Both the position numbers and the translations under genes were made by a program. From positions 1,302,001 to 1,366,000 of the forward strand of contig NZ_CP034593.1 of NCBI RefSeq assembly GCF_003971195.1: 64,000 nt of DNA, given 5' to 3'. The number at the start of each line of letters is the position of its first letter. Positions within the stretch are counted from its first letter, which is position 1. This stretch comes from Flaviflexus ciconiae (lineage in GTDB: Bacteria; Actinomycetota; Actinomycetes; Actinomycetales; Actinomycetaceae). The notes under the pieces were generated by a model. The model did not search any database, was not told the DNA's origin, and saw nothing but the letters and a program-made list of their open reading frames with translations. Of the stretch, positions 29,026-51,183 are shown in pieces.

Positions 29026-29961
29026 TTATTGAGGCGAAGGAGCGGATATGGGCTTGGTGGCCCTCCCATATCCACTCCTCCAGATATAGGCCACGAGAAC
29101 GATGACGGTCCCAGACAGGATGACCGCCCACCAGGGAAATCCTGGAATCTCGGGAGCATCAAAAGCTGTTTCGACGTCATGGATCGGCGTGGGTGTGACT
29201 CGTTCTCCGGTGACAAGAATGCGGTGCGAGTTGATGCCGAGCGGGGTGCACGTCACGAGAGTGATGAGGTCCCGCTCGGGATCTGCGAAGATCGCCTCCG
29301 TTTGATCAGGCTCGATGACCTGAACGCTGACGACCCTATAGGTCAGTACTTCATCGAGAACAAGGACGGAGAAAGTGTCGCCTTCCTCTGCCATATCCAG
29401 GTTGTTGAAGAGTGTCGATTCGGGGAGTCCCCGGTGCGCGGTGAGCACGGAGCGAGTTCCAACCCCTCCGACCGGAAGGGAGGTCCCCTCAAGGTGGCCC
29501 ACGCCCTTCTCCAACGTCGTATCGCTCGTTCCGTGATAGATCGGTAGATCGATTGTCAAGTCGTCATAGCGGAGCCGGCCCATGAATCCTCCGCCTGTCA
29601 GGGCAAGGAGTTCCTCATAGTCAAAGCCGCCGTCAGCAAACGTTCCCTCACCGGTGGCAACGTTCGTGTTTGCTTCGTAGATTGCGCCCGACGCTAGGGC
29701 GTCGTTGTAGGCATGGGCCAGTTCGAGCTCACTATTGGCCAGAACCGGATCGTTCTGCGGCGGCTGGTCCATCCTCTCCCTCATCAGCTCAATGACTCTT
29801 GACTGCTCGCGCTGCGAGAACCATGAAGCGATCTGCGGATAGAGGGTGACGAGAACACCGGCGAGGATGACGAGGCAGGCGATTGACTGTGCCCACGGGA
29901 ACCGCCACCGGCGCTGTGCCGGGACCTCCCGTTGCGAGACAACCGTGCCTGCCACTGTCAC
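29026..29961 (-). CDS. class C sortase, pilus-polymerising
   Basis: 311 residues. An N-terminal membrane helix (about 25-42) and a C-terminal helix (about 273-292) flank the sortase barrel, the class C topology. Catalytic residues are visible: His176 in LTAHRGLP, Cys238 in LVTCTPLG and Arg247 in SHRILVTGER. The lid region before the barrel lacks the usual DP[FW] motif. It links pilin subunits through their LPXTG signals to a pilin-motif lysine. It is last in the operon behind the pilin gene, from which a strong hairpin separates it. Confidence 0.93.
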   Translation of the reverse strand: MTVAGTVVSQREVPAQRRWRFPWAQSIACLVILAGVLVTLYPQIASWFSQREQSRVIELMRERMDQPPQNDPVLANSELELAHAYNDALASGAIYEANTNVATGEGTFADGGFDYEELLALTGGGFMGRLRYDDLTIDLPIYHGTSDTTLEKGVGHLEGTSLPVGGVGTRSVLTAHRGLPESTLFNNLDMAEEGDTFSVLVLDEVLTYRVVSVQVIEPDQTEAIFADPERDLITLVTCTPLGINSHRILVTGERVTPTPIHDVETAFDAPEIPGFPWWAVILSGTVIVLVAYIWRSGYGRATKPISAPSPQ

Positions 29962-29983
29962 TACCTTTCATTTGCTTCCGGGA

Positions 29984-30017
29984 GGGTTGTGGCGGCGGAA
30001 TCCCGCCGCCACAACCC
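29984..30017 (-). terminator. 15-bp hairpin between pilin and sortase genes
   Basis: A perfect 15-bp stem (GGGTTGTGGCGGCGG at 29984-29998, with 30003-30017) and a 4-base loop. There is no T-tail on the minus strand. It lies between the pilin stop (30048) and the sortase start, so it may be a partial terminator or an mRNA stabiliser giving more pilin than sortase. Confidence 0.6.
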
Positions 30018-30047
30018 AACCATCACTGAATCGTTCCCGTTTGTTGA

Positions 30048-31553
30048 CTACTCGGTCTTGCGGCGACGGGTCAGAGCAAGAGCTCCACCGCCAATGCCAA
30101 CGAGAACCAGGCCACCAACGGTCATGAGCAGCGTGCCCTGAGCACCGGTGAGCGGAAGGTCCGGACCATCGGTCTTGGGGTTGACGATCGTCAATGCATT
30201 GACGTTGTTTTCACCAGCGCTGATGGTCACGGGGTTGGTGATAACACCTGCCGAGTGCCCGGAGGGGACCACGGTCTCGTAGACGCAGTAATCCTTGGTA
30301 GGTGAATTCAGCGGATCATCGGAGTTGGCAATCCACAGTCCGAGGGGCGACGTTGCCGGTGACGTGTAATCCCACAGGACAATGCCGTCATCACCCGATA
30401 CGCCGGTCGCCACCGGGTCACCGGTCGGGACCGTAGCGGGGCACTGAGTGCCAGCAGCATCGAACACCTGGAACTCAGCGCCCGCAAGAGGAAGCGCGGT
30501 TTCCGAGTCATCGGTCTTCAGGATTGAGAGCTGTCCCCAGTAGGTATGCGGCTCATCCTCACCCGGGACGGTGGTTCCGTTGAACTTGCTCGCATAGTCA
30601 TCGTTCGGGATCGACCCATTACCGACTGACGTGACGGTCGTATCGAACTCGATGATCAGGTTATTGCCCTGGTTATCATCAAGGAGGGCACGTCCGGATT
30701 CCGTCAGAGTCCAGACCGCATTCCCTTCCACGTTGTAGTGCGTTCCATCGACTAGAGGTGTGGCCGGATCACTATCGATCGTGACCGTCGACGAGCCTGG
30801 AACGTAGGTGAGCCGGGAATCGAGGGTATCCGTAATCACCGCTTCCGTGAAAGTCTCGTCGTTGTTCAACACCGGGATGGGCACATTCAGGGTCCAGGTG
30901 ACATCCGAGCCAACGACCAAATCAACCTGATCTTCGTCGATGGTCTTCGACGGCACGTCCATCAGCTGGTTCTTCGGATCGGCCACAACGTCGTAAGTCC
31001 AGCCAGCTCCGCCTTCCCCAAGGGAGGTCGGGATGGAGACGTAGAAGTCGGGAACCTTGGAAACGATCGGATGGTCTCCCGGGTCAGTTTCCTGAACCAG
31101 GTAGATTCCAACATCCAAAGTGAACGTCACCTTTCCGCCGACCGTCACAGCATCCTTTACGGTGGTGGTCAAGCAGAAGGGGTCCGCCGGCGCTGCGGGA
31201 GCACTGTCAAAGAGGTCTTCTAAGCCATCCCAATGACTCGCGTTCGTGAGGTCAAGAGGGACACATGTGCCCCCATCAACCTTCCCAACTCGGGTCACGG
31301 TGAACTCGACACCGTCAAGGAGATTGTCCCGGTCGGGTGTTTCCCCTTGGCCCACCGGGCCACCCGAATACTTGTTGATCGTCAGTGTGCCGTCATCGGG
31401 GGCTCCCGGCTGATCGGGGCCTATGTTGGTCCCGACGGGATCGTTCTCATCAGCCATCGCGGCTGTACCCACCCCAGCGAATCCAGCTAGTGCGAGTGCC
31501 AATGCACCGGCCCCAGCGGCAAATCGCCGTAATGCGGTGTGTTTCGTAGACAT
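30048..31553 (-). CDS. SpaH/EbpB-like major pilin, LPXTG-anchored
   Basis: 501 residues. The signal peptide (about 1-34, ALALALAGFAGVGTAAMA) is followed by Ig-like pilin domains. The pilin motif appears as WTYDVVADPKN (Lys194; the usual form is YPKN). An E-box, YCVYETVVPSGH, sits near residue 430, so intramolecular isopeptide bonds are likely. The sorting signal is LPLTG at 466-470, followed by a hydrophobic helix and RRRKTE. It is the shaft subunit of a sortase-assembled pilus. It is second in the operon after the VWA adhesin. Confidence 0.92.
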   Translation of the reverse strand: MSTKHTALRRFAAGAGALALALAGFAGVGTAAMADENDPVGTNIGPDQPGAPDDGTLTINKYSGGPVGQGETPDRDNLLDGVEFTVTRVGKVDGGTCVPLDLTNASHWDGLEDLFDSAPAAPADPFCLTTTVKDAVTVGGKVTFTLDVGIYLVQETDPGDHPIVSKVPDFYVSIPTSLGEGGAGWTYDVVADPKNQLMDVPSKTIDEDQVDLVVGSDVTWTLNVPIPVLNNDETFTEAVITDTLDSRLTYVPGSSTVTIDSDPATPLVDGTHYNVEGNAVWTLTESGRALLDDNQGNNLIIEFDTTVTSVGNGSIPNDDYASKFNGTTVPGEDEPHTYWGQLSILKTDDSETALPLAGAEFQVFDAAGTQCPATVPTGDPVATGVSGDDGIVLWDYTSPATSPLGLWIANSDDPLNSPTKDYCVYETVVPSGHSAGVITNPVTISAGENNVNALTIVNPKTDGPDLPLTGAQGTLLMTVGGLVLVGIGGGALALTRRRKTE

Positions 31554-31689
31554 TTCTACCGCTTCCTTTCTTTCCCTCGGCCGCCTGTGGCTTCGTAGAG
31601 GGTCGATATTTTTCTACTTTCCTTGCGGCCCGAGGCCGAATGCTTGCCGCTCACTTTGAGCCAATGAGCGCCGGTTGAGTCCAAACCCT

Positions 31690-34600
31690 CTACGCCACCT
31701 CCCTGCGGTTCTTGCGCAGGTGCGCGTAGCCCATGCCGCCCACTCCGAGAAGGAGAATCGACGGGCCAACAATCATGAAGAAATCGCGGCTCATGCCACC
31801 GGTCAACGGTAGGGCAGGCGGATCTCTTCGTTCATTTTCAACTGGGTCGAGGGTCACCTCGAGTGAGGCAGGGTCCTCTTTTCCAATGGTGAAGGTGATG
31901 GGGTCACTGTTCAGGTAGTAGCCTGCCGGCGCCTTCGTTTCGGTGAGCGTGTATTCACCCCAGGGCAAGTCCTCGATCTGGAACACGCCGGCTTCCAGGT
32001 CCGCATCGGGCCCAGCACAGGAATCAGCCGTGCAGTCGGTAATCGCTAGCACGTCACCGTCATTGAACAGGTCGGGGCCGGCAAGCTCCCATTCCGAGCC
32101 CGACAGCTTCGCACCAGAGTCATCGACCTTTGTCCACTCCACGCTGCCGAGTTCACGAAGGGTCGTGTTTGTCACGATGATCGTCGATGCCTGAGTAGCT
32201 GCCGTGACTGGATCGCCAATAGTCGGCTCCCCGTCCCAGCTGTAGGAGGGATCGTCTGCCACGGGAACGTCCGGACGTCCATTCTCATTGACAACTGAGC
32301 ATTCGGAACCAAGCGGGATCAGGTGCGTACCATCAGAGGCCCAGGTTTCACCGTCCTTGATCGGCCCCCATTGACCGGTGACAGTTTCATCGCCGAGAAC
32401 ACACTGCCAGTCCCCGCTGTATTCCAATTCAGAATCAGCAGTGCCGTCGACAATCTTCGTTACCTCGAAATTGCCGTACACGCGGTCGGCGGTGTTCGTG
32501 ACGACCACGTTGACGGCATCATTGGCCACGACAGTCGCGGAGTCAGCCGCTTCCGGGTACTCGATGGTCGGAGTTCCCCACTCCCATGACGTGTTGGGAA
32601 GGGCAGTATCATCCGGTCCCGTTTCAGTCACGGTACACCCGGAGCCAACCGGAATCTGGTTGGGGGGCACCGAACCAGATGCCTCTGTCAGGACTGCGGG
32701 GCCCTCCCCACTGGCGGTCCATGTGCCTGCGGCCGTCTCGTTTCCTCCGATGGAGCAGGCGTAGGTTCCAGTGAAGGACGCATCGTCAGCCGTCTCTGGC
32801 GGGACATTGAGATACTTTTTCTCAATGGTGAGTGCACCATGCTTGGGAGGTTCCTGATTCAAGACTGTGCAGGCAACGATGGAATCTACCTTCACATCGA
32901 CATCAAAAGCTAGGGCTCCCTTATTTGTGACCGGGACAGGTGCTCCACTTGCTTCACAGACTGCGTTGACACCGTTCTGTTGCACGAGCTCATATCCGGC
33001 TTGCTGAGTTTCAGTGACTGTGACTGTCCGTGAGGCTGTTGGATCCGTACCCAAATTCAGACGGAAGTTGACGGCTCCAGTCTCTTCATCAGTCACCCTT
33101 CCCAGTGAAGAAACAAGAGACTCATTGTCTGCGACCAGCACTGCGTCAGTCGTGGCAGCAGTGAAGAACCAGCCAGCGGGGGAAGAATCGATTATCTCAC
33201 CATCGGCGTCAACGATCTGCTTTGTTACGGAGACAGAGCCCCTGCAGTTCTTACGAGCAAGCTCTTCCAGCTGCTCTTCAAGTGCTTCGTAATTGGCAAC
33301 CAGGTAGTAGTCAGTACCTTCTATGTCGCCGGAAACATCCTTGATATTTTCCTCGTCGACACCGCTACCAACACCGAGCCCCATGACAAACGCGCCATTC
33401 GACTTCAGATCATTGGCCCGGAGAATCGCAGTATCAAGGTCGATTTGATCGAAACGTGTCCCGTAGTCATTATTTCCGGGCGGAGCACTTCCCGGGGTGC
33501 CGTAAGCGGTTGGTTTTCCATCGGTAATAAAAACGACCATGTCATAACCACCGGCAACCTGCCCAAGCCCAGCATCCCAGTTCGTTCCACCCTGAGCGCT
33601 GGTCGGGCGCGAAAGACCGTTGATGTGTGCACGAACCACGTCAGCACCGTCATCCGTCGCCACCGTTGTTGCGGGGAGATTTGTATTCGACCCCGCTGGG
33701 GCAAACGTTGCAAACGTATAGATGCCAACGCTTGAGGGCGTACCTTCAAGGGCGTCAATAAACGCCACTCCCGCATTCTTAGAGTTATCGACATCCCTAT
33801 CGCTCAACGAGTTTGATAGGTCGAAAACCAGAGCGATACTCAGGCCACACTGGTTGGGCAGTGCCGGGTTCGGCATCGGATTGACATTGACACTGACAAA
33901 TTGTTGCACAAACGTGCCGAAGCCATGAGTACTCTGGCCGTGTGCATTATTGAAACCCCCGGAATAACCAATACTCTTTTGATAATTGCTGGAAGGTCTT
34001 TCATAATTCGCCTCCCCATACGAGAACTGACCAGATTGTTGCGTGATCTGATATCTCGTATCGGTTACGACATTGTGTCCACCAAATTGCTTCACCAGGA
34101 ACTCACCCGGATCGGGATCTAGGTCTGGCCCGTCACACGGGGAGGCGATACAGTCGTCGACACTGGTAGCTCCTGCCCAACGTGCGAACCCACGATACTC
34201 GATAGTAAATGTCGCTCCGCCGACCGGGTTCCCACTTGCGTTCTTCACATCCCAATAGATGAAGGGGGGCGACGCCTCATCAGGCGAGCCCACCGCCATC
34301 GGCTCAATCGCGGCCTCACTGGCAAGCGACGACGCTTCACCATCTTCTTGACCCTCATCGATTCCAACCACGTCGTCTTGGACGACGATATCCTGCTCAT
34401 CAGCCAGGTCCCCTGAGCCTTCGTCACCAGGAATTGGCGTTGCCGGCTCGTCCGGTTCTTCAACGATGGGATCGTCCGGCTCGGGAGCGGTAACCGGATC
34501 GACGGGATCATCCGGTGTCGGCACGACTACTGGATCGACGGGATCATCCGGTGCCGGCACGACTACCGGATCGACAGGGTCCTCCACGGGAGAGTGGCTC

Positions 34601-34767
34601 TCAATCGGATCGGCGGGCTTCTCGATCTCGGCACCGCCGCCCGTCGTATCATCCGAATCTCCCGCTGCTGCCACGCTGAGCGGAGCGAGGCTCAAACCTA
34701 AGAGGGCGGCGGCGAGGGCCGCTGTCATCTGTGACCGCCAGTTATGTGATCGCATTGTTCTCTTCAT
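31690..34767 (-). CDS. VWA-domain pilus tip adhesin, LPXTG-anchored
   Basis: About 1,025 residues. A signal peptide (AALLGLSLAPLSVAAAG) leads to a Pro/Asp repeat region (PDDPVDPVVVP repeated) and an Ala/Glu-rich stretch. A VWA domain (about 300-490) has the metal-site DLSNSLSD and the VFITDGKPTAYG segment. SpaA-type/DUF5979-like modules follow (TKQIVDADGEII, KKYLNVPPE, TKIVDGTADSELEY, TKVDDSGAKL), each with Cys pairs. It ends LPLTG, a helix and RKNRREVA. The ATG at 34767 has GAGG eight bases upstream; a GTG three codons earlier is possible. First gene of the operon, divergent from a LuxR-type regulator. Confidence 0.88.
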   Translation of the reverse strand: MKRTMRSHNWRSQMTAALAAALLGLSLAPLSVAAAGDSDDTTGGGAEIEKPADPIESHSPVEDPVDPVVVPAPDDPVDPVVVPTPDDPVDPVTAPEPDDPIVEEPDEPATPIPGDEGSGDLADEQDIVVQDDVVGIDEGQEDGEASSLASEAAIEPMAVGSPDEASPPFIYWDVKNASGNPVGGATFTIEYRGFARWAGATSVDDCIASPCDGPDLDPDPGEFLVKQFGGHNVVTDTRYQITQQSGQFSYGEANYERPSSNYQKSIGYSGGFNNAHGQSTHGFGTFVQQFVSVNVNPMPNPALPNQCGLSIALVFDLSNSLSDRDVDNSKNAGVAFIDALEGTPSSVGIYTFATFAPAGSNTNLPATTVATDDGADVVRAHINGLSRPTSAQGGTNWDAGLGQVAGGYDMVVFITDGKPTAYGTPGSAPPGNNDYGTRFDQIDLDTAILRANDLKSNGAFVMGLGVGSGVDEENIKDVSGDIEGTDYYLVANYEALEEQLEELARKNCRGSVSVTKQIVDADGEIIDSSPAGWFFTAATTDAVLVADNESLVSSLGRVTDEETGAVNFRLNLGTDPTASRTVTVTETQQAGYELVQQNGVNAVCEASGAPVPVTNKGALAFDVDVKVDSIVACTVLNQEPPKHGALTIEKKYLNVPPETADDASFTGTYACSIGGNETAAGTWTASGEGPAVLTEASGSVPPNQIPVGSGCTVTETGPDDTALPNTSWEWGTPTIEYPEAADSATVVANDAVNVVVTNTADRVYGNFEVTKIVDGTADSELEYSGDWQCVLGDETVTGQWGPIKDGETWASDGTHLIPLGSECSVVNENGRPDVPVADDPSYSWDGEPTIGDPVTAATQASTIIVTNTTLRELGSVEWTKVDDSGAKLSGSEWELAGPDLFNDGDVLAITDCTADSCAGPDADLEAGVFQIEDLPWGEYTLTETKAPAGYYLNSDPITFTIGKEDPASLEVTLDPVENERRDPPALPLTGGMSRDFFMIVGPSILLLGVGGMGYAHLRKNRREVA

Positions 34768-35434
34768 GTCATTCACCTCGAGCGATGCCGGCCCGTTTGG
34801 TTACCGCGGACTGACGTAGGGCTTAGAAACGATTGGTCAATCGACCTCGTGTAAGCGGTGGACACGCAGAGTTTCGTGGCGATCGTGACCGTCGCCGTAG
34901 CAAAAAAGCGCTTCACACATGTATGTCGCACGACTACCCCCACCCAAACAGACAGCTTTATCCAAAGAGATGAGCCACCCGCTCGCTGCCGACTTCTATC
35001 CCCTTCTCGTCAAGAAGGCTGATAGTTCGGGTCCGGGCGGACTGCTCAGAAACCGAGACATCTTTTGTTCCGGTTTGCAGTTGATTCTTTGCCCTCGGGA
35101 CCACTTGCTCAATCGATATGCGCCTAAATCGTCCCGTTTTCATCATCAAATTATGAGAAATCTAGAAACTAATTGATGAAAATGACTGCTGGACTTAATG
35201 AATGAGAGTCCTTTATTGATGAGTAATCAGTACTGCCCGGATCGGATCACACCTGGATCACCCGGAAGCGCGCCACTCATCGTTTTTTTAATGAGACACG
35301 CCTGAATCCTTGCGTAATCACCGCAAAAGGCATACAGTCATTCCACGATCTTCTAATCGATCAGTCAGAGTCGTCCGGTGGTTCACACCTGGCAAGGGAG
35401 CCTGTCGGGCACCCCCCGAGCTGGAGAGTTAGCT
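34768..35434. other. 660-bp divergent control region, pilus operon / LuxR gene
   Basis: No gene. AT-rich boxes containing ATGAG or TGATGA recur at about 35151-35169, 35172-35180, 35194-35207, 35214-35230 and 35288-35296. Several also occur in the control region at 47829-48576. The span is long enough for separate promoters and several regulator sites. Confidence 0.5.
35153..35169. promoter_or_regulatory. candidate shared regulator box A
   Basis: ATGAGAAATCTAGAAAC, matching ATGAGAAACTAAGAAAC upstream of the paralogous regulator (48537-48553) at 14 of 17 positions. It lies 266 bases before the regulator start. A shared binding site is inferred, not shown. Confidence 0.35.
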
Positions 35435-38050
35435 ATGCCTCGGAGTGCTTTCAAGCGTCTTGTTACTACGCCTTGGTTCCTTGTCTCCATACCAGAGCCG
35501 AATCCAGGGTCACTCCCACGACCACGCCTCGATGACCTCCTTGAGTCAAGCAGTAGCGATTTTCCGATCACAATTATTGAGACTCCCCCGGGATTCGGCA
35601 AGGCCACCGCCCTTGCCGCTATGGCCAATGCTCGGAAGGAAAGTACTGCATGGGTGACGGCCCTTGCGGTCTACTCAGATCCGGTCCCGCTCTTCGCTGC
35701 GATACTCTCGTCGCTTCATTATCTGTACCCGGGCAATCAAGGGATCCACGATGAGATCACGCGGCTCAATCAGGACGATGACCCGCTACATTCCCGCATT
35801 GCCTCGATGCTCTCCCATCTGCCCGAGGACAGGCGCACGGTCGTCGTCATCAACGATGCTCATTACCTCAGCAAAAAGGCACTCACAGATCTGGTGGTGC
35901 CACTGGCTCGCTACAGCCGGGGCCAACTGCATTTCATTCTGTCCGGGATGCAGTCGCTCACCTCGTGGCTCTCAAAGGAGACTGCCGAGGGCATTGCCCA
36001 CACGATTCCCCACTCGGAGTTCCTTTTCACGCGGGAGGAAACGACCGAGCTTGCTACCGCTGCCGGTCTTGACCCCGAGCGGATCCATGCCGCCAACCGC
36101 TGCATGCATGAGGAAACGCACGGGTGGCCGGTCGCCGTTCAGCTCCTCATTAAGAGCCAGTACGAGGCCACCGTGGATGTGGAGACCGGTACGGCCCCGA
36201 CCCTCCTCACCGAATACATCGTCAACGAAGCGCTCACCAGCTTGCCCAAGCGGCTCCAGGACTTCGTTCTCACCGCCACTGCCTCAACGGGCACCAGCCC
36301 GAAGCTCGTCACGCACCTGACAGGTGACATCAGTAGCCCTGCTCTCCTACAAGAATGCCAGCGCCGGGGACTTTTCCTTGAACTCTTGAGAGACAAGGAC
36401 AGTGATCCTCGGTTCCGTTGGCATCCGCTCTTTGCCCAGAGCTGCCAGGACATTCTCAAGGAGCGCGACCCCGAGCACTACGATGCGATGCAGAGGAGAA
36501 CGGCGGAGTGGATGGCAACGCGGTATCCCTCGGTTGCCATCACCCACGCACTCAAGGTCAAGGACCCCGACTTCGCGGTTCATATGATTGAGGACGTGTG
36601 GCTCCAGATGATCACGAGCGACCACACGGCAACTCTTGAAAGCCTCTGCCTCGAGGTTCCCACTGCCGGACGCAAACTTCCGAGCCTTCTCTATATCCGC
36701 GCCTGCTGCCGTGACATCCTGGGGGATGCCATCGGTGCCAAGATGCTGAAGGCACGTGCCGATCGCGGCATCGCAACCCTCGAAGGGGACGAGGCTGAAC
36801 GCACTCGAATCACCAAGGCCTTCGCTGAGCTCCTCCTGCTGGAGAACCACTCGGGACTGGATGCGGCTGTCAGCACTGCCGAGGAGATCCTGACAACGAC
36901 ACAGCTCCACAGAAGTCTCTTTACCCACGGTACGTTTATCACCGCATGGAACTGCCTGAAGCTGAGCCGCGCCCCCAGGCGCGCCGCCGCCCTTTTCGGT
37001 AGCGTGTCCGCGAGCGCCGAGATCGCCGGCTTCCCACTAATCGGACAGAGCGCCAAGGTCGGCCTTATCACGGCGGAGGCTTTCTCGGGCCGGTTCCGGG
37101 TTGCCCGGCACCTCCTTGACGAGTTTGACACCGATCACAAAGTGTCGGCGCCGAACAGCCCGGTTGTCGGCCACGTGGTCGCCTGGCCGGATGCTTTCAT
37201 GTCTTTCTGGCAGGGTGACATGAACCGCGCGGTTCAGCTCGTCCGTGAAATCGATAGCGTGGACGGCTACGGGGTTGACGAAACAGACCTTGCTCGACTC
37301 TATTTTGCGTATGCTGCTGCCCTGTCGCGCGACACATCCCTGCTGAATGAGGCAACGATCATGGTGGGGAAGATGGACGATGAGGAGACTCATGGCATGC
37401 CCTGGCCGATATACAAGCATGTTGCCGAGGTCTGCCTTCATCTCGCCCGCGGGGATCGCACCCGCGCCATTGCCCTTCTCGAAGATGTCAAGGAACATTC
37501 GTGGGCCAGAACCACCCGGATCATCATCGCCGAACTGTGGTTCCGATTGGGACTGCCCGATCGTGCACGCCGCGAACTCGACCACGTGGACGACACCTCC
37601 CTCGTCAGTTTCAATCTTGCGCTCTATCAGAAGACCCTCGCGGCGATTGACTGGGTGAAGGGAAACAAGCGCAGGGCGCACAGCCGGTTTGAGTCGGCCC
37701 TCGACGCGGCAGTACCGGAGGGCGTTCTCATTCCGTTCATTTACCTGGATGACGCCAGCCGAGAACTCATGACAACACATTCCTACTCGGGGACGAAGCA
37801 CAACGATTTCCTTATCACGAGGATTGCGGCAGATGCTGCTCGAAGCCGCAAGTCCACCGGTGTCGGCGCACTGCTGTCCGAGCGCGAGTACGAGGTATTC
37901 AGTTTCCTGGCAACACCGATGACGGCCGAGGAGATCGCAAAGAATCTGTTCCTCTCCCCCGCCACGGTCCGCTCGCACCAGGCATCGATCTACCGGAAGC
38001 TCAGGGTGACGAACAGAAAGGATGCCGTCAGGCAGGGCCTGAGCCTCTAG
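35435..38050 (+). CDS. MalT/LAL-like LuxR-family regulator (pilus side)
   Basis: 871 residues from ATG 35435, which has GGAGAG six bases upstream; an upstream GTG at 35378 is less likely. The N-terminal STAND-type ATPase domain has a P-loop reading ETPPGFGKATAL (about 49-60), with Ala where Ser/Thr normally binds magnesium, and a Walker B-like VVVINDAHYLS. A long helical, TPR-like sensor region follows. The C-terminal LuxR HTH is clear: LSEREYEVFSFLATPMTAEEIA, in part, and LSPATVRSHQASIYRKL. It is divergent from the pilus operon and convergent with the giant adhesin gene. It is a paralogue of the regulator at 48577. Confidence 0.88.
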   Translation: MPRSAFKRLVTTPWFLVSIPEPNPGSLPRPRLDDLLESSSSDFPITIIETPPGFGKATALAAMANARKESTAWVTALAVYSDPVPLFAAILSSLHYLYPGNQGIHDEITRLNQDDDPLHSRIASMLSHLPEDRRTVVVINDAHYLSKKALTDLVVPLARYSRGQLHFILSGMQSLTSWLSKETAEGIAHTIPHSEFLFTREETTELATAAGLDPERIHAANRCMHEETHGWPVAVQLLIKSQYEATVDVETGTAPTLLTEYIVNEALTSLPKRLQDFVLTATASTGTSPKLVTHLTGDISSPALLQECQRRGLFLELLRDKDSDPRFRWHPLFAQSCQDILKERDPEHYDAMQRRTAEWMATRYPSVAITHALKVKDPDFAVHMIEDVWLQMITSDHTATLESLCLEVPTAGRKLPSLLYIRACCRDILGDAIGAKMLKARADRGIATLEGDEAERTRITKAFAELLLLENHSGLDAAVSTAEEILTTTQLHRSLFTHGTFITAWNCLKLSRAPRRAAALFGSVSASAEIAGFPLIGQSAKVGLITAEAFSGRFRVARHLLDEFDTDHKVSAPNSPVVGHVVAWPDAFMSFWQGDMNRAVQLVREIDSVDGYGVDETDLARLYFAYAAALSRDTSLLNEATIMVGKMDDEETHGMPWPIYKHVAEVCLHLARGDRTRAIALLEDVKEHSWARTTRIIIAELWFRLGLPDRARRELDHVDDTSLVSFNLALYQKTLAAIDWVKGNKRRAHSRFESALDAAVPEGVLIPFIYLDDASRELMTTHSYSGTKHNDFLITRIAADAARSRKSTGVGALLSEREYEVFSFLATPMTAEEIAKNLFLSPATVRSHQASIYRKLRVTNRKDAVRQGLSL

Positions 38051-38334
38051 CTGTCCGCTTACCGCATCGGGCCTTGTGCTGACACCATTGGGGAACGGTA
38101 ACTCTCGTTGTCGTCCTAGGAGATCTGCGACTTCCACGTATGAACACGCGGCTCCCGCTCCTCGAGTTGCCGTTGAGGAGAATCCGCGATCCGAGCTGCT
38201 TTCAGTCCAGCAGCCGCTATTCTGCTATTGCGATCCAGGCCCCGAAGGTGACGCACGGGATTCCCACGGGATCAATCGGAGGTGCTCTCCACCGCTCCCG
38301 ATCCCATGTCCTCACGGTTCTTTCCCTATCAACG

Positions 38335-38368
38335 GAAGCGGCGCCAGTCCGTAGACTGACGCCGCTTC
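38335..38368. terminator. bidirectional terminator
   Basis: GAAGCGGCG (38335-38343) pairs with CGCCGCTTC (38360-38368), with an inner CAGTC/GACTG stem and CGTA loop. On the plus strand it is followed by TTGGTTG. Confidence 0.7.
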
Positions 38369-38405
38369 TTGGTTGACCGGGTGGAGTCATCCACCTGTCG
38401 TTTTA

Positions 38406-38426
38406 CCGGATGGATTGATCCATCGG
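38406..38426 (-). terminator. hairpin directly behind the giant adhesin gene
   Basis: CCGGATGGA and TCCATCGG pair around a TTGA loop with one bulge, starting four bases past the adhesin stop on the minus strand. Weaker than the neighbouring hairpin. Confidence 0.45.
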
Positions 38427-38429
38427 TTG

Positions 38430-44400: not shown

Positions 44401-47240
44401 GCGGGTGAAGCCGCAAGGTCGACCTCGCCCGGCCTTGACGAAGAAACCTGAAGACCGGTCAGATCAACCCTGTTGAAGGGGCTCTCATCCAGCCACTCGG
44501 TCGCATCACCCATCTCCCCCAGGTCAAACGGTGACGTGGTCGCGCCCGCAGCCGTGGCTTCAACCTGGCAGTCGGTGTTGCTACCCATGTCATCGCATTG
44601 CGGCGGATCAACAATCGACAGGTAGGAGGCCTTCGATGCAGACATGCTCGATGCCTTCACCGTCCAGTTGATCTCCTGGAACAGGCTCGGATCGGCACCG
44701 GGTGCGGGGACGTAAATCTGATCCTCACCGTTAACGATCGACACCGACTTGTCCACGCGGACGTTCGGGGAGCCGTTGATGATCTGAATTTCATCAGCAT
44801 CGGTGTCCCGTACCGGATCCGTATTCTCATCGATCGGATCGGCCTCGAGTTCAACAGTGTTGAGAACTTCGCCGGTGTTGGCAGTGTTGTAGGTTCCACC
44901 CTGCTCAACCCAAATGCCCGCGCTGCGGGTCTTGTTCCTGATTTCCCAGTCGAGGGTAAAGGCACGTCCTGAGCCTTCGGAGACACCGGTCCCCGGCTCG
45001 GGCGCGTACGGGTCGGTGGCATTCGTGCGTGCGTCCGTGTTCTCGCCGAGAACAATCTGGAAGCCGACGGTCGACTCGCGTTCAGCAGCCGTTAGCTCGT
45101 AGCCAACGAATCGGCCATTCTGGATCCAGCCACCGCTTGGAGCGGCCACCTCAACCCAAGTGGAGCCATCATAGAGTCGCACCGACTCGATCGTGTCGTA
45201 CTTGAGGAACCAGCCATTCGAGTACGGAGTATTCGAAGCGTTGATCGGGTCAATGCGCTTCAAGTCAAAGGAATCGTAGACGCTCTCCTCGATGTTGATC
45301 GTTGGATCCGACGGATCCGTGATCGTTGCATTCTCGTACCCTGCCGTGAGGCTCCACGACAGAGTGGTCGACCGTTCCTGACCTGACTGCGCAATGACAT
45401 TCGCCTCAGTCCAGCTCTTCACAATATCAATCGGTCCAGGACCGCTGGGAGACGGGACAACCGCACCAGTATCGACATCGAAGTCCTCGTCAATTACCGG
45501 CGTTCCATTGCCAGTCTCACCGTTTCCTGAGGCAACCGCTGCGTTCTCGTACTCCGTAGCTACGTCCGGGAGGTCTTCACCGAGGCGGGTCTGTTCAAGG
45601 GCGGTGAAACCCACGTAGGGACGAGCATTGAACGTGGCGGGAAGGCCGTCATCACTCGAGAACTCAAAGCGCACACCAGTCACGTCCTCAGCGGCAACGG
45701 CCGGCGTGAGCGAAGCGAGGGCAGCATCAAGCGCGGATGCATTGAGGCTAACGAAGCGGGCCGAGGTCTCCGCGGGGAAGACACTGACCTCATGCCACGT
45801 ATCCCCTACCTGAACGGAGAAGCTCAGCTCAACGTTGGCCGGAACCTCGGTTGACGGCATCGAGGAAAGCTCAAAACCATTCCAGAAGTTCGACGCCGAG
45901 TCATCCCAGACATCCTCAATAATGAGGGACTCGTTGGTGACCCAGTCGGACGACGCCACCGACTGCGCGACGAGGCTGGTAACAACGGTCTCACCCGGGT
46001 AGACGTCACGGTTCGGGCGCACGTCCTTCGTCAGGGTGACATCAATACCCGGTGCAATAACAACAACCGAATCGCGGTCAGTATCCGAATCAGACAGACC
46101 GTTCGGGGCAGTAACCTCGACGGACACACCATTATTGAGCGTGACCGAGTTCGGGGCAGCGCCTGCCGCGTCCTCGGTCGTTGCGATATCGAAGGTAGCA
46201 TCCGCACTCGCACCCACCGCAATTGTTCCGGTGAAGACGATGTCGAACCCGGAAATGGCAACCCCGGGATCAGCCGGGGTCGCCCCATTCGTATAGGCGG
46301 TGGTGATCGGATCTCCACCATCAAGCGGGTGGTAGACGACAGCGGCGTCGGTCGCACCGGCAGGCCATGTCGGCGCCGCATTGAAACCATCAAAAGTGAT
46401 CGTGTCGGTGAAGAAGTCCCGGTCCGAGATAACAAGCTCGGCTACTGGAACACCGGACTGGTTCACACCGGTGAGGGTCGCTGATGCGGACTGGCCGGCA
46501 CCGATCCGATCCTGCTGGATGTCCTTCGCCGCAAGGGCCTCGATGGGAGCCGGGGTGATCGCGAACGGGGCATTGTCCGTCACGGTCACCGGCTCATACT
46601 CGGGCTCAATAGCCGTGGCCGAGGCAATGTTCGTGACATCCTGGCGAGCAACCGACAGGTCGCTACCATCATTGCGGTCCGTGGCCCGCTGGCCTACCGT
46701 CATATCAATCGCGGCCGAGGCGCCAGCCTCGATCTCGCCAGCAAACGTAAAGCGGAGCCCAGCAACATCGGCTGGGTCGACACCCGTGGGAAGAGCCGCA
46801 GTCACCTCAGCGTTACCCGTCACCCATGCATAGGTTCCGTCTGCCTGAAGAACGTAGGCGTCCACTTGAACGGTGTCGGCACCTGCCGGAAGTGCAACAC
46901 TGTCAAGCGAAGCGAGGTCAACGATGCTGAACGGGTTGTTTGCATCCAGGGTGTCCGCGCCGTCGACCGCCGTTGCCGGGTCCTGAACAACAAGACTGCT
47001 CACCGGAATATTCGATGAGTTTGTCGCGGCAAGGGTAACCGCGGACTCAGCTCCCTCCTCGAAGTACTGCGAGGAAGGGTCCCAGTTCTTTGTGATCCCT
47101 GCATTGATCGTGCCGGGAACATTCACAGTAACGGTGGCCTCGTCAGCATCCGGCGCCGAGTTATCAGCGGAGGAAGAGACATGGTTGACGGCGGTGATGT
47201 CGGTGCCACCGGGTAGATCCTGCGGCACCTGCAGTGTCAC
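38430..47240 (-). CDS. giant DUF11/DUF5979-repeat surface protein, main body
   Basis: 2,936 codons, in frame with the signal-peptide ORF upstream but separated from it by a TAG (47241-47243). Roughly the first 1,650 residues are beta-rich, DUF11-like modules (for example VRVDKSVSIVNGEDQIYV). Then come eleven DUF5979-type modules of about 100-104 residues (42270-38560). Three are nearly identical (GELVIDKQVVGEGADLYGAG) and several carry the Cys pair CVYD...ADCTVTE. The end is MPVTGADVRNAIVLGLLLL, a helix and ARRKNA, a sorting signal with Met in place of Leu. The nominal start is a GTG directly after the TAG, with no signal peptide, so this is more probably the interrupted part of one gene than an independent one. 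If displayed, it would be a very long cell-wall adhesin. Confidence 0.85.
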   Translation of the reverse strand: MTLQVPQDLPGGTDITAVNHVSSSADNSAPDADEATVTVNVPGTINAGITKNWDPSSQYFEEGAESAVTLAATNSSNIPVSSLVVQDPATAVDGADTLDANNPFSIVDLASLDSVALPAGADTVQVDAYVLQADGTYAWVTGNAEVTAALPTGVDPADVAGLRFTFAGEIEAGASAAIDMTVGQRATDRNDGSDLSVARQDVTNIASATAIEPEYEPVTVTDNAPFAITPAPIEALAAKDIQQDRIGAGQSASATLTGVNQSGVPVAELVISDRDFFTDTITFDGFNAAPTWPAGATDAAVVYHPLDGGDPITTAYTNGATPADPGVAISGFDIVFTGTIAVGASADATFDIATTEDAAGAAPNSVTLNNGVSVEVTAPNGLSDSDTDRDSVVVIAPGIDVTLTKDVRPNRDVYPGETVVTSLVAQSVASSDWVTNESLIIEDVWDDSASNFWNGFELSSMPSTEVPANVELSFSVQVGDTWHEVSVFPAETSARFVSLNASALDAALASLTPAVAAEDVTGVRFEFSSDDGLPATFNARPYVGFTALEQTRLGEDLPDVATEYENAAVASGNGETGNGTPVIDEDFDVDTGAVVPSPSGPGPIDIVKSWTEANVIAQSGQERSTTLSWSLTAGYENATITDPSDPTINIEESVYDSFDLKRIDPINASNTPYSNGWFLKYDTIESVRLYDGSTWVEVAAPSGGWIQNGRFVGYELTAAERESTVGFQIVLGENTDARTNATDPYAPEPGTGVSEGSGRAFTLDWEIRNKTRSAGIWVEQGGTYNTANTGEVLNTVELEADPIDENTDPVRDTDADEIQIINGSPNVRVDKSVSIVNGEDQIYVPAPGADPSLFQEINWTVKASSMSASKASYLSIVDPPQCDDMGSNTDCQVEATAAGATTSPFDLGEMGDATEWLDESPFNRVDLTGLQVSSSRPGEVDLAASPAWLLRYDEVTNALSVEDTTVDALPSMTAEELQDVIGVAVTFQGSDPAETGGTISSANEFTITYETKLRETLRHDGSDQTFLAGETANLTNRVFAQSFDPVLADGEGTGALDPASVVLTGGEITVAPGKSVSPSLLIEPERDTPVTVTLSANSGTTPRNTLSPVEVWIRDDNVSSPDFWNSFTFTGLGTISAPSGSDQAVVSVYGPFGDSGAMEWIDSAPTALDSVEVPVGAEQYADIQGIEVTFTRADGGLFSQTLPAASWNASIPFTVELRDTFRDSGEEIAMEGTVENTVTVQAIGERDRSPEVTADAVVELSPGTQEIKVNKLANEGRRTVNVGVPIPWDLTVQNSGTGYLTLTELRDELPDSLLFSAEYAPVYEAEDGGTLSEDVTLEERDGELVFTWPEDGNIMQPGETFKIRIHLELQPGLQAGQEATNVIVANTVETLDQCGNTSPYQGNTGHWTQDPTSCGTSDFVQPTAGMNLYAVKGVMGSLDGAVNSLNADLACTPNLTASDGADYYRYPCIANSAIGGTDSWVLRTVNAGTTNMDELVIFDQLPVAGDKMYVSGGNRGSDYRPQITEAPTVYAPEGATYTVEVTSSSDVCTGTWSNLENQEPCEQNGETWLEAANDTDWSTVSGIRIHVDFAGTDAGTMLPGNTVDVTFETENAPATAADPSGASVTVPVENERAINQFGVRYLPANTNSWEKLTPAQVGVQLPIGSIAVTKDITGPAAAYAPSEFRADVQCTIEGAPVDLGDYSTIVLTEANEWTVQIDGIPYGAECTVTEQGDLGEFGETSRSIENDTLQVLESVDAEGNVPQAQITTLSNDYQFGDLSVSKTVETDADLGEFGPFDFVLTCQTLLGNAVTFDDAGTAVYEFTLEDGETVNIPANTIPVGSLCELTEVGSNADSIVYSGLNVTADGDTATIGVLSADTPTDVSVTNGYDAGQITLEKVVDGEGAEIFGTGEFGFDLVCIYNGDEIFTDSFSLVGGGTYTTPSMPASTSCSVVETTTGGATSTSISPAEIVVPTQDTEELSSLLVTATNTFDVGELVIDKQVVGEGADLYGAGPFEAQAQCVYDVDGVPTPVGLANEGRVTLSEANGYTATIGNLPIGADCTVTETLTGGATSSEVSGDAVIANDPAVVTVTNTFDVGELVIDKQVVGEGADLYGAGPFEAQVQCVYDVNGANTSIALANGGVVPLMADNGYSATIGNLPIGADCTVTETKTGGATSTEVSGSGSISATPAVVTVTNTFDVGELVINKELVGDGAELYGVGPFEAQAQCVYNVNGEDTPITLANDGIVPLSADNDYTATIGDLPIGAECTVVETVTGGATATEVSGAAVIAHDPVVVTITNTFDVGSISIVKKVEGGAADHPTADRTFEVTASIDTTAISEEFPDPADRTIELTEGVPFIIEDLPVGSTVTFEETALVDDDILTWGEPVFTPESVLVDDAAIDSPVEVTLTNSIERTVGTFSISKIVTGDQADNGAVPENVTINATWDEEGVTGSKTLEVPTDGTPVPLGEDLLIGTEVILTEVPLEDGSSIAWAAPAWSGDGVEIDGNSAVVTVGRNAEAAVVVENHAATSVAGLSIIKGIAGEAADEVAPETEFPVTVTWTDADDVEQVRELTINAVEPTPLGEDLPAGTVVTITEGDRPGFDTVIWDEIVISGDDVTDNGDGSADVVVSDQQDDVTLVTVTNEATWAPGTFTLVKYVEGVLLDNPDVSETVTIIATWVEADGETGDLVTVSRSIEVPVDGTPVDFGEYLPHGTEVTLVEDALAGNAAFTWAAPAWGEVEGLIINEDGTATLTIAAAQNPTVEITNVAHATLGNLSIVKELSGSGADLVPANTTYPVTATWTDILGAPQSVELELVAGEPATIENVPFGTEVTLTEGEFDVPATVTWEGAEWSADSNVTISGDGTEVVIVVEDEAGTAVSVTLDNDFDEIPADPEDPSGPDMPVTGADVRNAIVLGLLLLAAGLVALYTARRKNA

Positions 47241-47828
47241 CTAGAGGTGGAGGGTCTGTCCCGGCTCCATTCCTTCGCCGTCCTGCGTCAGATGGAGCAC
47301 GTCAAGGACTAGCGAAGTATCAGCGCCAAGTTCTGCAGGCTGGTCGGTTAGAGCAGTATCGCCCTCATACCAGGTAACTTCGCGGGGAACTTCTGCCGCT
47401 GCCGGGCTGATGAAGACGTTGTCAATCGGCCACCCGGCCAGCTCCGTCGGGAAATCATCTACCAGCTCAGCATTGAGACACGTCGTTTCCTGGCATTCCA
47501 GGTAGATGCTGTAGGTAAACGAATCACCCGGCTGGAGCTCTTCCTTATCGACCGACTTTCGAACGGTCAAATATTCCGGGAACTGCTCCTGCATCGGCGA
47601 GGCGGGTTCGCCCGTGGCAGCCGCGGGGAACAGCATGACGGCAGCAACGATCATGGCCAGGGCGCTGTACGCGCGCTTGCGCATACGAGTCACACTCGCA
47701 CGACTCTTAGCCAAACCCCTGCTACCTGCCGAGCTCAGCGTGGCCAGTACAGAATGACAGGCTCTCATCAGCCAGTTTGGCTGACGAGAGCGGGTGTTGT
47801 CGTCATTCAACGGATGAGGACGTTTCAC
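47241..47828 (-). CDS. N-terminal part of the giant adhesin, ended by TAG
   Basis: 195 codons from GTG 47828, with GGGGGAA just upstream. After a basic lead of 48 residues comes a signal peptide (RKRAYSALAMIVAAVMLFPA, about 50-71, cleaved near AAATG). The first extracellular domain follows, with EYLTVRKSVDKEELQPGDSF and a Cys pair (ECQETTC). The frame stops at TLHL-TAG and continues at once in the same frame as VTLQVPQDLPGG, exactly what an uninterrupted domain would read. Alone it would be a small secreted fragment without wall anchor. Confidence 0.8.
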   Translation of the reverse strand: MKRPHPLNDDNTRSRQPNWLMRACHSVLATLSSAGSRGLAKSRASVTRMRKRAYSALAMIVAAVMLFPAAATGEPASPMQEQFPEYLTVRKSVDKEELQPGDSFTYSIYLECQETTCLNAELVDDFPTELAGWPIDNVFISPAAAEVPREVTWYEGDTALTDQPAELGADTSLVLDVLHLTQDGEGMEPGQTLHL

Positions 47829-48068
47829 GTCATTCCCCCTTTTCCAGTTGTGATTTCATCGGGTGTCTCCTTTTTTGAAGTGCTGGTAAGAACGTTGAAG
47901 CTCTGCTGTCAAAGTCGCGCGTAAGAGTGGCTATGGCAGGGCATAGCTCACCCAGTAAAGGGCTTCACAAAGCTGCTACTGGGTCCAATTTCCATTGCCT
48001 CAACGCGCGATTCCGCGTGAAATCTGAGCGCAACAGGTCAGGTCAAACGACTCCAGACCTTGAGGTAG

Positions 48069-48098
48069 TATCCGTCGATCGCCATTGATCGACGGATA
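48069..48098. other. 12-bp inverted repeat in adhesin control region
   Basis: TATCCGTCGATC (48069-48080) and GATCGACGGATA (48087-48098) with a 6-base loop. No T-tail on either strand. It could be an operator or a leader hairpin. Confidence 0.5.
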
Positions 48099-48536
48099 CC
48101 GGGATTGGTGTAAAGATAGGGTCGATTGCTGAGGCACCGTCGCTGAATGCGCCGGCGGCCGCGTGTCGACACTCATGAATTCCTCGCAGTTCTCATAACG
48201 GATCACCCAAGACCGTCATGGGCTCGGGCGATATGCCGATCTGATCGTCCACCGAAAGCTTGTGCGCTTCAATGAAAGTCGGAGAACCCGCGCTCCATTC
48301 ATAAAGTTATGATTACTTTTTCAGCAATGTCTCCCCATTTGATGAGTCGTTCAAAAAATGATGAGAGGGCGAGTAATCATTGTCGTCGGCGCTTCGGTAG
48401 CCGGGTAAGACGGCCTTAGCCGAGTGCTATTAGCTTCGATAATGGCTTCATTACATCAATACATGTGCGCGTCTATCGCACATCATCGCACCGAGATTCC
48501 CTAGACCAAGATGGGTATCAAACCGCTTCTTATTTC

Positions 48537-48553
48537 ATGAGAAACTAAGAAAC
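48537..48553. promoter_or_regulatory. candidate shared regulator box B
   Basis: ATGAGAAACTAAGAAAC, 24 bases before the regulator start codon at 48577. It matches box A (35153-35169) at 14 of 17 positions. Its position fits autoregulation. Confidence 0.35.
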
Positions 48554-48576
48554 GAGTTTTTCCATCTTGTTACGAT

Positions 48577-51183
48577 GTGGATATGCCAGGCGATTCTCTG
48601 CATCCACTACCGGCCGTTGCGCGATTCTTTGTCACAGCACCGGAGGTCAGCGGACGAGAGATTCTTCGCCACGAACTATTTGAGATCATTACCTCGTCGG
48701 TACGTGAGTATCCGATCAGCGTCATTGAAGCACCGTCCGGTTTCGGAAAGACCACCGCCCTCAGCCTGTGGGCAAAGGAGCGCGAGGAGCCCACCGTTTG
48801 GTTAACCCTCGGCCAAGAGGGCAAGACAACAACGCAACTTTTCGCCTACCTTTTAGCGGCACTGCAGCGCACATTTCCCGAGTCTGACGATCTCAGCAAA
48901 CTGGTGCTCGATGTCCAGGACGGCGCGGAGTCACTACAGCCGGTTCTCGAGTCACTCTTGGACGCGATCCCTTCCGCCGGCACAACCGCTGTCATCATCG
49001 ACGAAGCACAGGCTTCCAGTCAGGACGCCCTCAACAATATTGTGGTTCCGCTGGCTCGTTACAGTGGCGGTCGTATCCGCTTCATTCTCAGCGGCACAGG
49101 TCGCCTGTCGAAGTGGATGGCAAACCCCCTTGCCAAAGGGGAGGCTATCCGGCTCGCAAACGTCGCGTTCCCATTCACGCAAAACGAAGTGAAAGAGCTT
49201 GTCGCCCTGAGTAGCGACGCAGGTGCCGATGCCGCTCTGCGCCTGTGGGAGGAGACGGGTGGATGGCCGGTGGCGGTCCGGCTACTGCTTCAAATAGGAG
49301 CCGTTGAACATCCGCCGGTCAATCTGAAAGAGCACACTCCCCCAAGCGTCCTCACCGACTACATTGAAGCGGAGATTCTGGAGAAGATCCGTCCGGAGCT
49401 TCGCGAATTTATCCTCGATGCGGTTATCGCCGACCGAGTCAATGAGAGCCTTGCCAGCGAGATGACAGGCAGCCACCTCGCTGCCTCCTACCTCGAAGAG
49501 TGCCGCACGGGCGGCCTGTTCCTCGACAGCTTCCAATACAACGGTGGCGGAACCGTGTACCGCTGGCATTCCACCTTCGCGCTTAGCTGCCGTGAGATCG
49601 CCGAGCGCACCGACCCGGCTCGGGTACAAGCCGTTCACCGTCGAGCGGCGGGATGGATGGCCGACCCATATCCGGCGGAAGCTATTTTCCATGCGCTCCA
49701 AACCGGCGACGACGACTTCGCGGTGGCAATGATCAACGAAGTGTGGATGCCGCTCGTCATGCACGGGCACACGGACCGACTGGAGGAGCGTTGCCTGCAA
49801 CTGCCGAGAAGTAGGCAACACGATGCCTCAATTATGCATATCCGCTCCGTGTGCCGCCACATTGCTGGGGACACGATCACATCCGAGTTGCTCAGAACCC
49901 ATGCCGATGCTGCCTTGGAACGACTGTCCGGTGACGAACTCAAGCAGTCCCCCACGACAATGATTTTTACGAATCTCCAAATCCTTTCAGGACACGCCGA
50001 ACTCACGGAGACTGTGGCCGAGGCCGAAAAGATCCTCGCGAAGGCGGCCCTCTCGAAGAGCCAACACCTGCACTACATGTACGTGGTCGGCTCCACGATG
50101 ATCCGCTTGCGCACCAACCCCCGTCGCGCCATCGAGCTTCTAACCGCGGCGACAATGGGTGCTCGAGAAATGGGTCTTCCGAGACTCGCGCACAGGGCGG
50201 CCGCAATGAATGCCCTCGCTCTCGCATTCGTCGGTAAATTCCATGCCGCACGCCAGATCATTGATCGCGAATCGGCAGACAACCCCAGCATGTTCGATCC
50301 AATCGACGGAAGCGTCGTCTATTGGTCGTCCATGTTCGTCGCCTATTGGCAGGGGGATATCGACCAGTTAATCAGGGACGCCCGGGTTCTCGACTCTAGC
50401 CAGCAGAAGGCAACGTGGCGTACTGGGATGGGGCGCCTCTATTTCGCGGCCACGGCAACGATCGCCCGACACGACCTCCTCGACGAAGCACTCGTCATGC
50501 TTGATAAGATACCCGACACCGTTGAGCACGGTCTCCCCTGGCCCGCCTACAAGGCAATCGCCCATGCCGGCATACTGTGGGCCCGCGGCAAGAGGCCCGC
50601 TGCCGTTCAGGCTCTTGAGCGGATCGGTTCGCACGACGGGATCACAACCGTGTTATCGATGGCGGCAGAAATGTGGCGCAGGCTTGGCTACCCCAATAGG
50701 GCCCTCAAATTGATTTCGAAGATCGACAAGAACCAGCTCACCAATTACACCGCGTCGAGCATCCAGTTCACCCAGGCTGTCATCGCATGGGACAAAGGAG
50801 ACCAGACCCTTGCCCACAATCTGCTAGACAGCTGCCTCACGCTAGCCGTTCCAGAATCAATTGCGTCGCCGTTCGTCGGTCTCGATGAATCATCGCGGGC
50901 GCTCATCCTCGCCCACATCGACCGGGGTACACCCCACGAGCATTTCCTAACCGAACGGCTGGCAACGAGTCCTTCTCATGTGGTCTCAACCCTCGAACCG
51001 AATCGCGACCTCTCCCGCCGCGAAACGGAGATTCTCCAGTACCTGGCAACGCCGATGAGCGCCGAGGAGATCGCGGAGTCCCTCTTCATCTCTCCCGCCA
51101 CCGTCCGATCTCACCAGAGGTCGATCTACCGCAAGCTCGGGGTGAAGAGACGGCGCGATGCCGTGCGCGTGGGGCTCCAGTAG
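48577..51183 (+). CDS. MalT/LAL-like LuxR-family regulator (giant-adhesin side)
   Basis: 868 residues, paralogue of the regulator at 35435 throughout its length. The P-loop is intact (EAPSGFGKTTAL, about 51-62), and Walker B reads AVIIDEAQASS. A long helical sensor region leads to the C-terminal LuxR HTH (LSRRETEILQYLATPMSAEE and ISPATVRSHQRSIYRKL). Its recognition helix differs from the paralogue by one or two residues. The start is GTG 48577 or ATG 48583; no SD is evident. It is divergent from the giant adhesin and ends 23 bases from the convergent xerC stop. It probably activates the adhesin gene in response to a bound ligand or partner. Confidence 0.9.
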   Translation: MDMPGDSLHPLPAVARFFVTAPEVSGREILRHELFEIITSSVREYPISVIEAPSGFGKTTALSLWAKEREEPTVWLTLGQEGKTTTQLFAYLLAALQRTFPESDDLSKLVLDVQDGAESLQPVLESLLDAIPSAGTTAVIIDEAQASSQDALNNIVVPLARYSGGRIRFILSGTGRLSKWMANPLAKGEAIRLANVAFPFTQNEVKELVALSSDAGADAALRLWEETGGWPVAVRLLLQIGAVEHPPVNLKEHTPPSVLTDYIEAEILEKIRPELREFILDAVIADRVNESLASEMTGSHLAASYLEECRTGGLFLDSFQYNGGGTVYRWHSTFALSCREIAERTDPARVQAVHRRAAGWMADPYPAEAIFHALQTGDDDFAVAMINEVWMPLVMHGHTDRLEERCLQLPRSRQHDASIMHIRSVCRHIAGDTITSELLRTHADAALERLSGDELKQSPTTMIFTNLQILSGHAELTETVAEAEKILAKAALSKSQHLHYMYVVGSTMIRLRTNPRRAIELLTAATMGAREMGLPRLAHRAAAMNALALAFVGKFHAARQIIDRESADNPSMFDPIDGSVVYWSSMFVAYWQGDIDQLIRDARVLDSSQQKATWRTGMGRLYFAATATIARHDLLDEALVMLDKIPDTVEHGLPWPAYKAIAHAGILWARGKRPAAVQALERIGSHDGITTVLSMAAEMWRRLGYPNRALKLISKIDKNQLTNYTASSIQFTQAVIAWDKGDQTLAHNLLDSCLTLAVPESIASPFVGLDESSRALILAHIDRGTPHEHFLTERLATSPSHVVSTLEPNRDLSRRETEILQYLATPMSAEEIAESLFISPATVRSHQRSIYRKLGVKRRRDAVRVGLQ

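Follow-up and report, generated by a model that had tools for sequence, protein, structure and literature searches.

Two MalT-type regulators beside a sortase pilus and a giant adhesin in Flaviflexus ciconiae may read a common predicted operator

Two surface-structure modules, each paired with a large regulator of the MalT/LAL (large ATP-binding LuxR-family) type, lie side by side in a 64-kb window of Flaviflexus ciconiae (contig NZ_CP034593.1, 1,302,001-1,366,000; single-contig genome of 2.83-Mb). RegA is divergent from a sortase pilus operon and RegB from a giant adhesin, both cargoes being encoded on the minus strand; these parts, which an earlier sequence-only reading had described, were all recovered in place (Table 1, in window positions). 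We consider it somewhat probable that the two regulators are activators which, each beside its own cargo, read one MalT-like operator, with circuits that overlap rather than being sealed from each other. The overlap is proposed because one core motif is preserved on the control side of either module and because the regulators appear to have been re-paired with their cargo during evolution.

RegA and RegB are paralogous along their full length, as had been claimed, with 37% identity end to end over 874 columns (BLASTP). Both combine an N-terminal STAND P-loop core, a TPR superhelical sensor with a fold match to MalT domain III, and a C-terminal LuxR helix-turn-helix domain (PF00196, 56.3 bits in RegA and 63.2 in RegB, cut-off 23.5). 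Among the eight LuxR-type helix-turn-helix matches of the genome, they alone sit in large frames, listed at 897 and 880 codons; the remaining six are found in frames of 209-251. The core, sensor and LuxR domain are those of MalT from E. coli, Klebsiella and Actinoplanes, and the predicted operator likewise consists of GATGA-containing half-sites, with the 5-nt spacing of Actinoplanes. The Flaviflexus regulators differ in remaining under the NCBIfam MalT equivalog cut-off (141.6 and 174.1 bits against 537), in having surface structures as neighbours, in an operator core of TGATGA instead of GGATGA, and in the degenerate Walker motifs of RegA.

The operator was sought across the genus, represented by six Flaviflexus genomes (G000-G005, of which G000 is the genome of the window and G003 a draft). 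Every 7-mer of the seven control regions between regulator and cargo was counted, with 300 dinucleotide-shuffled sets as control. TTGATGA/TCATCAA was the sole 7-mer present in all seven, with 11 copies against 0.92 expected; no 7-mer reached seven regions in the shuffled sets, and none exceeded 8 copies. The 11 boxes sit 123-285 bp upstream of the regulator start, and their density in the control regions is 2.53 per kb compared to 0.17-0.60 per kb over 14 loci (targets included). Among 137 other 500-bp upstream windows, 121 had no box, 16 had one and none had two. Upstream of 30 outgroup regulators a single box was found in 15,002 bp (two more of the 32, L071 and L090, start at the locus edge, so no upstream DNA was counted for them), and the 700 bp upstream of the distant G109 regulator held none.

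A second line of evidence is the spacing of the half-sites. In Actinoplanes the MalT operator is given as TCATCC-5 nt-GGATGA, and the core of E. coli and Klebsiella MalT as GGA(T/G)GA (PMC7567727). The pattern TCATCn-Nx-nGATGA was scored for 16 spacers over eight regions, the eighth belonging to an orphan pilus operon of G003. A spacer of 5 was the best of the 16, with seven of the eight regions at two mismatches or fewer and five of these at one or fewer (spacers of 2 and 8 gave 6/8 at two or fewer). No shuffled set was as good (0/300), and 2/134 control windows were found at one mismatch or fewer and 20/134 at two or fewer. The form TCATCA-N5-TGATGA occurs at 25 places in the six genomes with at most one mismatch, against 3 for the reversed-pattern control. 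Four of these lie in control regions, two of them at adhesins (an exact match in G001, and one in G003) and two at pili (that of G000 and the orphan of G003). The orphan pilus was outside the discovery set and has two boxes within 700 bp upstream. In the three regulator-linked pili the operator is placed 362-372 bp before the start of the tip gene (the G000 start is ambiguous), and a CGATTT block conserved in the same three adjoins it.

The other 21 sites lie outside the control regions, and inspection of 11 revealed no convincing further target. Three sites of G003 are copies of one sequence, located in the copy inspected inside a transposase-like open reading frame (ORF) named by eye. At a distance of about 330 bp from an exact operator match in G003 (L141, G003:C6:36012) there is an ORF whose internal repeat, LPLIGEHFIEA, gives it by eye the look of a CRISPR array. 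Two species share an identical operator-like palindrome, TTATCAAACTTTGATGA, at L143 (G000:C1:1260959) and L149 (G003:C6:210149); it lies close to a gene that by eye is manC-like, though not within any predicted ORF, and is possibly a further target or a terminator. Exact double boxes across G000 amount to two direct pairs, neither in the window, with no inverted pair.

The third line is the conflict between the histories of regulators and cargo. Against six outgroup rows, a single clade unites all seven regulators of the genus, of which one is a fragment (support 100/99). Within it, the adhesin regulator of G004 groups with the three pilus regulators (100/100). A clade of adhesin regulators was rejected (AU p 0.0012 with three rows, 4e-5 with the G003 fragment added), and a clade of pilus regulators was not (p 0.43). 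Neither cargo tree contradicts the species trees: that of the adhesin stalk reads (G000,G003)|(G001,G004), and in that of the major pilin G004 and G002 are paired. The species tree from six clean markers pairs G000 with G003 and G002 with G004, leaving G001 unplaced; nine markers, with an unsound G004 row at marker 63137 (34% match), return the same two pairs. By these trees the cargo follows the species tree and the regulators do not, which suggests re-pairing. Tip protein and adhesin share one short match (147 columns, 30.6%, 37.7 bits). Because of this, and of the conflict between the trees, the earlier proposal that one regulator-adhesin unit was duplicated gives way to a narrower one, in which regulator and operator look duplicated and the cargo genes do not.

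The arrangement was found in few genomes. In a family-wide search of 213 genomes, six had a regulator match: five of the six genus genomes, G000 included, and one distant genome (27%). The locus is bordered on the right by xerC and, in four of five occupied genomes, on the left by a gene homologous to the M23 peptidase gene of the window. Beside xerC, both modules are present in two genus genomes, the pilus alone in one, the adhesin alone in two and neither in one. G000 has pilus-RegA followed by adhesin-RegB, G004 has both in the opposite order, G002 only the pilus module, G001 only the adhesin module and G003 an adhesin with a frame-broken regulator, while in G005, which has neither, a left-border-like ORF (45% over 128 aa) abuts xerC. 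A second locus of G003 holds the orphan pilus operon, of the same kind, with no such regulator in the 19 kb examined. The search among relatives suggested by the sequence-only reading thus found the modules side by side, with related regulators, in two of six genomes, and not the alternative of modules always apart with unrelated regulators.

Beyond the genus, a scan of genome records with RegA alone as query confirmed no relative. The best 80 of 90 matches of an alignment-based scan gave 79 loci, of which 41 (L057-L097) were screened for homologues of pilus, adhesin and regulator and for LPXTG-like tails, with the neighbourhoods of 22 inspected. L057 proved to be the G002 locus again, and the remaining 40 showed no pilin, tip or sortase match in the stretches examined, many of them incomplete. 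At L076 and L097, giant proteins of weak adhesin likeness lie about 4 kb from a related regulator. A further pairing of a regulator with surface proteins may exist in Agromyces sp. S2-1-8 (L069), where ORFs with LPXTG tails (558 and 1433 aa) lie upstream of a related regulator.

Table 1. Features of the two-module locus and of other genes discussed, in window positions
Feature	Position	Strand	Basis or remark
Activase-like gene (BcrAD_BadFG)	17381-19770		
Secreted 5'-nucleotidase-like protein	21334-23985		family name by inspection
M23 peptidase gene	28490..28984	+	left border of locus
Pilus operon, extent	29026-34776	-	
Class C (pilin-polymerising) sortase	29026..29961	-	NCBIfam class_C_sortase 230 bits, cut-off 160
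Major pilin, SpaH/EbpB family, LPLTG anchor	30048..31553	-	NF033902 280.1 bits, cut-off 95
Pilus tip protein: VWA-like, 2 DUF5979, SpaA, LPLTG anchor	31690..34776	-	VWA under its Pfam cut-off; anchor by inspection
Pilus-RegA control region	34777-35434		
Predicted operator, palindromic TCATCA-N5-TTATGA	35140..35156	.	1 mismatch; pattern scoring
TTGATGA box	35173..35179	+	7-mer count
TTGATGA box	35216..35222	+	7-mer count
RegA, MalT/LAL-type STAND regulator, 871 aa, ATG start	35435..38050	+	profile and alignment
RegA Walker A	35591		degenerate
RegA Walker B	35840		degenerate
RegA recognition helix	37964-38002		Ala at variable position
Giant adhesin main frame, 2936 aa, 10 DUF5979 stretches, MPVTG-type anchor	38430..47240	-	anchor by inspection
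In-frame TAG breaking adhesin frame	47241..47243	-	
5' piece of adhesin frame, 195 aa, signal-peptide-like N-terminus	47241..47828	-	by inspection; no Pfam match
Adhesin-RegB control region	47829-48576		
Weak operator-like palindrome	48299..48315	.	2 mismatches in 10 scored bases; two more places in same region score equal
TTGATGA box	48339..48345	+	7-mer count
RegB, MalT/LAL-type STAND regulator, 868 aa, GTG start	48577..51183	+	Walker motifs intact
RegB recognition helix	51100-51138		Arg at variable position
XerC-like recombinase gene	51207..52136	-	conserved right border; TIGR02224 267 bits, under cut-off 335
trmD frame (Pfam tRNA_m1G_MT)	55754-57147		frame shift near 56983

In its gene content the pilus operon has the pattern of actinobacterial SpaA-type pilus operons (class C sortase, SpaH/EbpB-type LPXTG backbone and LPXTG tip protein), from which it differs in its divergent MalT-type regulator. 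The adhesin shares a DUF5979 stalk and an LPXTG-type anchor with DUF5979/collagen-binding adhesins, and a Collagen_bind domain is present in the G001 orthologue; the window copy departs from them in its interrupted frame and in its head, which differs although the 660-residue end of the stalk is shared. Over about 1,880-1,895 columns, G001, G003 and G004 have adhesins with 60-64% identity to one another. The G000 adhesin reaches this level (60-65%) in the last 620-690 columns alone, with weaker repeat-level matches elsewhere, and because of this its head appears to have been replaced and the stalk end kept. Also in the window, the secreted 5'-nucleotidase-like protein has C-terminal repeats of the form VLVGDWDGDGTDTLGVRRG.

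The proposal of overlapping circuits has to be weighed against one in which each regulator activates only its own neighbour, the operators being alike by common descent and a change in the recognition helix already separating the two. This we regard as possible, though doubtful. The recognition helices of RegA and RegB differ at a single residue, in line with the statement that they are almost the same, and the consensus TVRSHQxSIYRKL or near variants of it extend across the regulators. As proof of common targets this likeness is insufficient, all 32 outgroup regulators carrying a very similar helix. Position x, which we take to correspond to NarL K192, a base contact (a literature search on NarL base contacts yielded nothing relevant), is Ala in all three pilus-linked regulators and Arg, Arg, Arg and Gln in the four adhesin-linked ones. 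It is Arg in 32/32 outgroup regulators (30 script-read, 2 by eye from printed tails), which were picked from the 79 loci with a retrieval pattern that permitted Ala or Arg alone at this position. Moreover, the regulator adjoins and diverges from its cargo in all seven cases, as insulated control would have it. Against insulation, the core motif is identical in both kinds of control region, the orphan pilus operon retains the motif, and the G004 adhesin regulator clusters with the pilus regulators. The Ala may also be a single evolutionary event (the p of 0.43 above), in which case the three-versus-four pattern does not amount to seven independent cases. The residue argues for some divergence in preference and against full interchangeability; cross-recognition between the modules is plausible. 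The earlier suggestion that the regulators act on each other's targets is thus credible from the shared MalT-like motif and the orphan pilus that carries it, but unproven; the difference in the presumed base-contact residue speaks against it.

Several observations weigh against a common operator and overlapping circuits. The enrichment of the half-site was known before the spacing was scored, so that the spacing alone is a fresh test, and the core is one base off the GGA(T/G)GA of MalT. The boxes of the orphan pilus lie 535-560 bp from the tip start, with none in the 500-bp window. The G004 adhesin region has one box and no palindrome (3 mismatches), the window's adhesin region has a weak palindrome with 2 mismatches, like 18/134 control windows, and when all 12 bases are scored the control regions of G002 and G004 contain no site with one mismatch. 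G004 is the sole genome in which both modules are adjacent and uninterrupted, and the tree conflict draws on six complete regulators and a fragment of a seventh. Finally, the presumed base-contact residue separates pilus from adhesin regulators as distinct specificities would predict. In this strain the broken adhesin frame, the degenerate NTPase motifs of RegA and this split in the presumed base-contact residue all speak against the hypothetical switch of the sequence-only reading, with its ordered or mutually exclusive display of the two structures.

That the locus is decaying, with the adhesin a pseudogene, RegA degenerate or dead, no working two-regulator switch here and the island being lost across species, seems rather unlikely to us, but part of the evidence fits it. 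The giant adhesin gene of the sequence-only reading is present with its 10 DUF5979 stretches, although not as an intact frame: the signal-peptide-like end is in the same frame as the main adhesin and is split off by the TAG near codon 196. A start codon directly past the TAG would give a protein without a signal peptide, and signal peptide and anchor are not in one open frame in the window, while the adhesin frames of G001, G003 and G004 are uninterrupted. Furthermore, the residue that follows the Walker A Lys is Ala in RegA, and the Walker B Asp is replaced by Asn; RegA is alone among 38 aligned rows (one further row was gapped) in lacking the Walker A Thr/Ser and the Walker B Asp, which in RegB are intact (GKTT, IIDE). 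The G003 regulator is broken into frames, and G005 has neither module beside xerC.

Against decay, RegA retains an open frame of 871 aa with its LuxR domain above cut-off, and RegB and the pilus operon are open. The TAG is a mutation or an assembly error, and the latter is a real alternative because a frame change occurs in the same window in trmD, a normally essential gene. The trmD frame shifts with respect to the ORFs of four relatives, which match in two frames; the Pfam family match begins at position 2 for the G001 ORF but only at position 56 of 195 for the window ORF, and the shift is a probable assembly indel. Some of the damage seen in this assembly may thus be an artefact, as possibly also in the draft G003. 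Unless the TAG is an assembly error, the adhesin arm is probably silent in this strain. Of 59 conserved ORFs compared, seven match in more than one frame of the window (four of them trmD, two the activase-like gene and one an ORF of doubtful reality). The activase-like gene occupies two frames here compared to one 1448-aa ORF in G002, and the middle of the G002 protein, including a DUF2229 domain, is largely without a match in the window.

It is improbable that the TTGATGA box belongs to another shared factor, e.g. a global surface-gene regulator: the orphan pilus of G003 does have the box with no adjoining regulator, in a genome whose sole family match is frame-broken, but the box has a MalT-type core and half-site spacing, and none was found in the 700 bp upstream of three other genus sortase/pilus genes with no such regulator in the retrieved stretch (one of them, L054, a sortase with no evident pilin).

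For the circuit with a shared operator, we infer the following course. Architecture, paralogy, the shared motif with its spacing and the conflict between the trees are seen in the sequences; binding of the motif, activation as the sign of control, the inducer step and cross-recognition are predicted. An inducer would bind the TPR sensor, upon which the STAND core would open and multimerise. The LuxR domains would then bind the predicted operators, TTGATGA half-sites with TCATCA-N5-TGATGA as the best form, between regulator and cargo, and activate the divergent operon and perhaps also the regulator's own gene. The variable residue of the recognition helix, which is Ala beside pili and Arg or Gln beside adhesins, may adjust the preference of each regulator.

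The ATPase switch of RegA is probably impaired in this strain. ATP hydrolysis resets MalT to its resting state (PMC4381067); because the Mg-binding Walker residues of RegA are gone, RegA may be latched or dead. A very improbable but distinct arrangement is that the two proteins assemble together in this strain, on operators that the modules have in common, with RegB as the partner that senses and resets and RegA as a stable DNA-binding one. If true, bacteria would here have an equivalent of paired sensor/helper STAND receptors, choosing the surface structure displayed.

The known roles of MalT-type and LAL regulators lie in the control of sugar-related genes and of antibiotics (PMC7567727, PMC9628970). 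The Streptomyces LAL regulator SCO6993 shares the large ATP-binding LuxR-family architecture; it binds its own promoter and is a repressor of antibiotic regulators (PMC9628970). No consensus emerged from its binding sites, and, unlike the Flaviflexus pair, it comes with no pilus or adhesin operon. Among the papers that our searches listed, no title or abstract opening ties a MalT-type or LAL regulator to a sortase pilus or a DUF5979 adhesin. A locus whose surface cargo keeps to the species tree, with regulators swapped and a common operator retained, would show how bacteria can rewire surface display without redesign of promoters. Two surface structures may in this way share one control language, and the six genomes, with both modules, one or none, form a natural test series.

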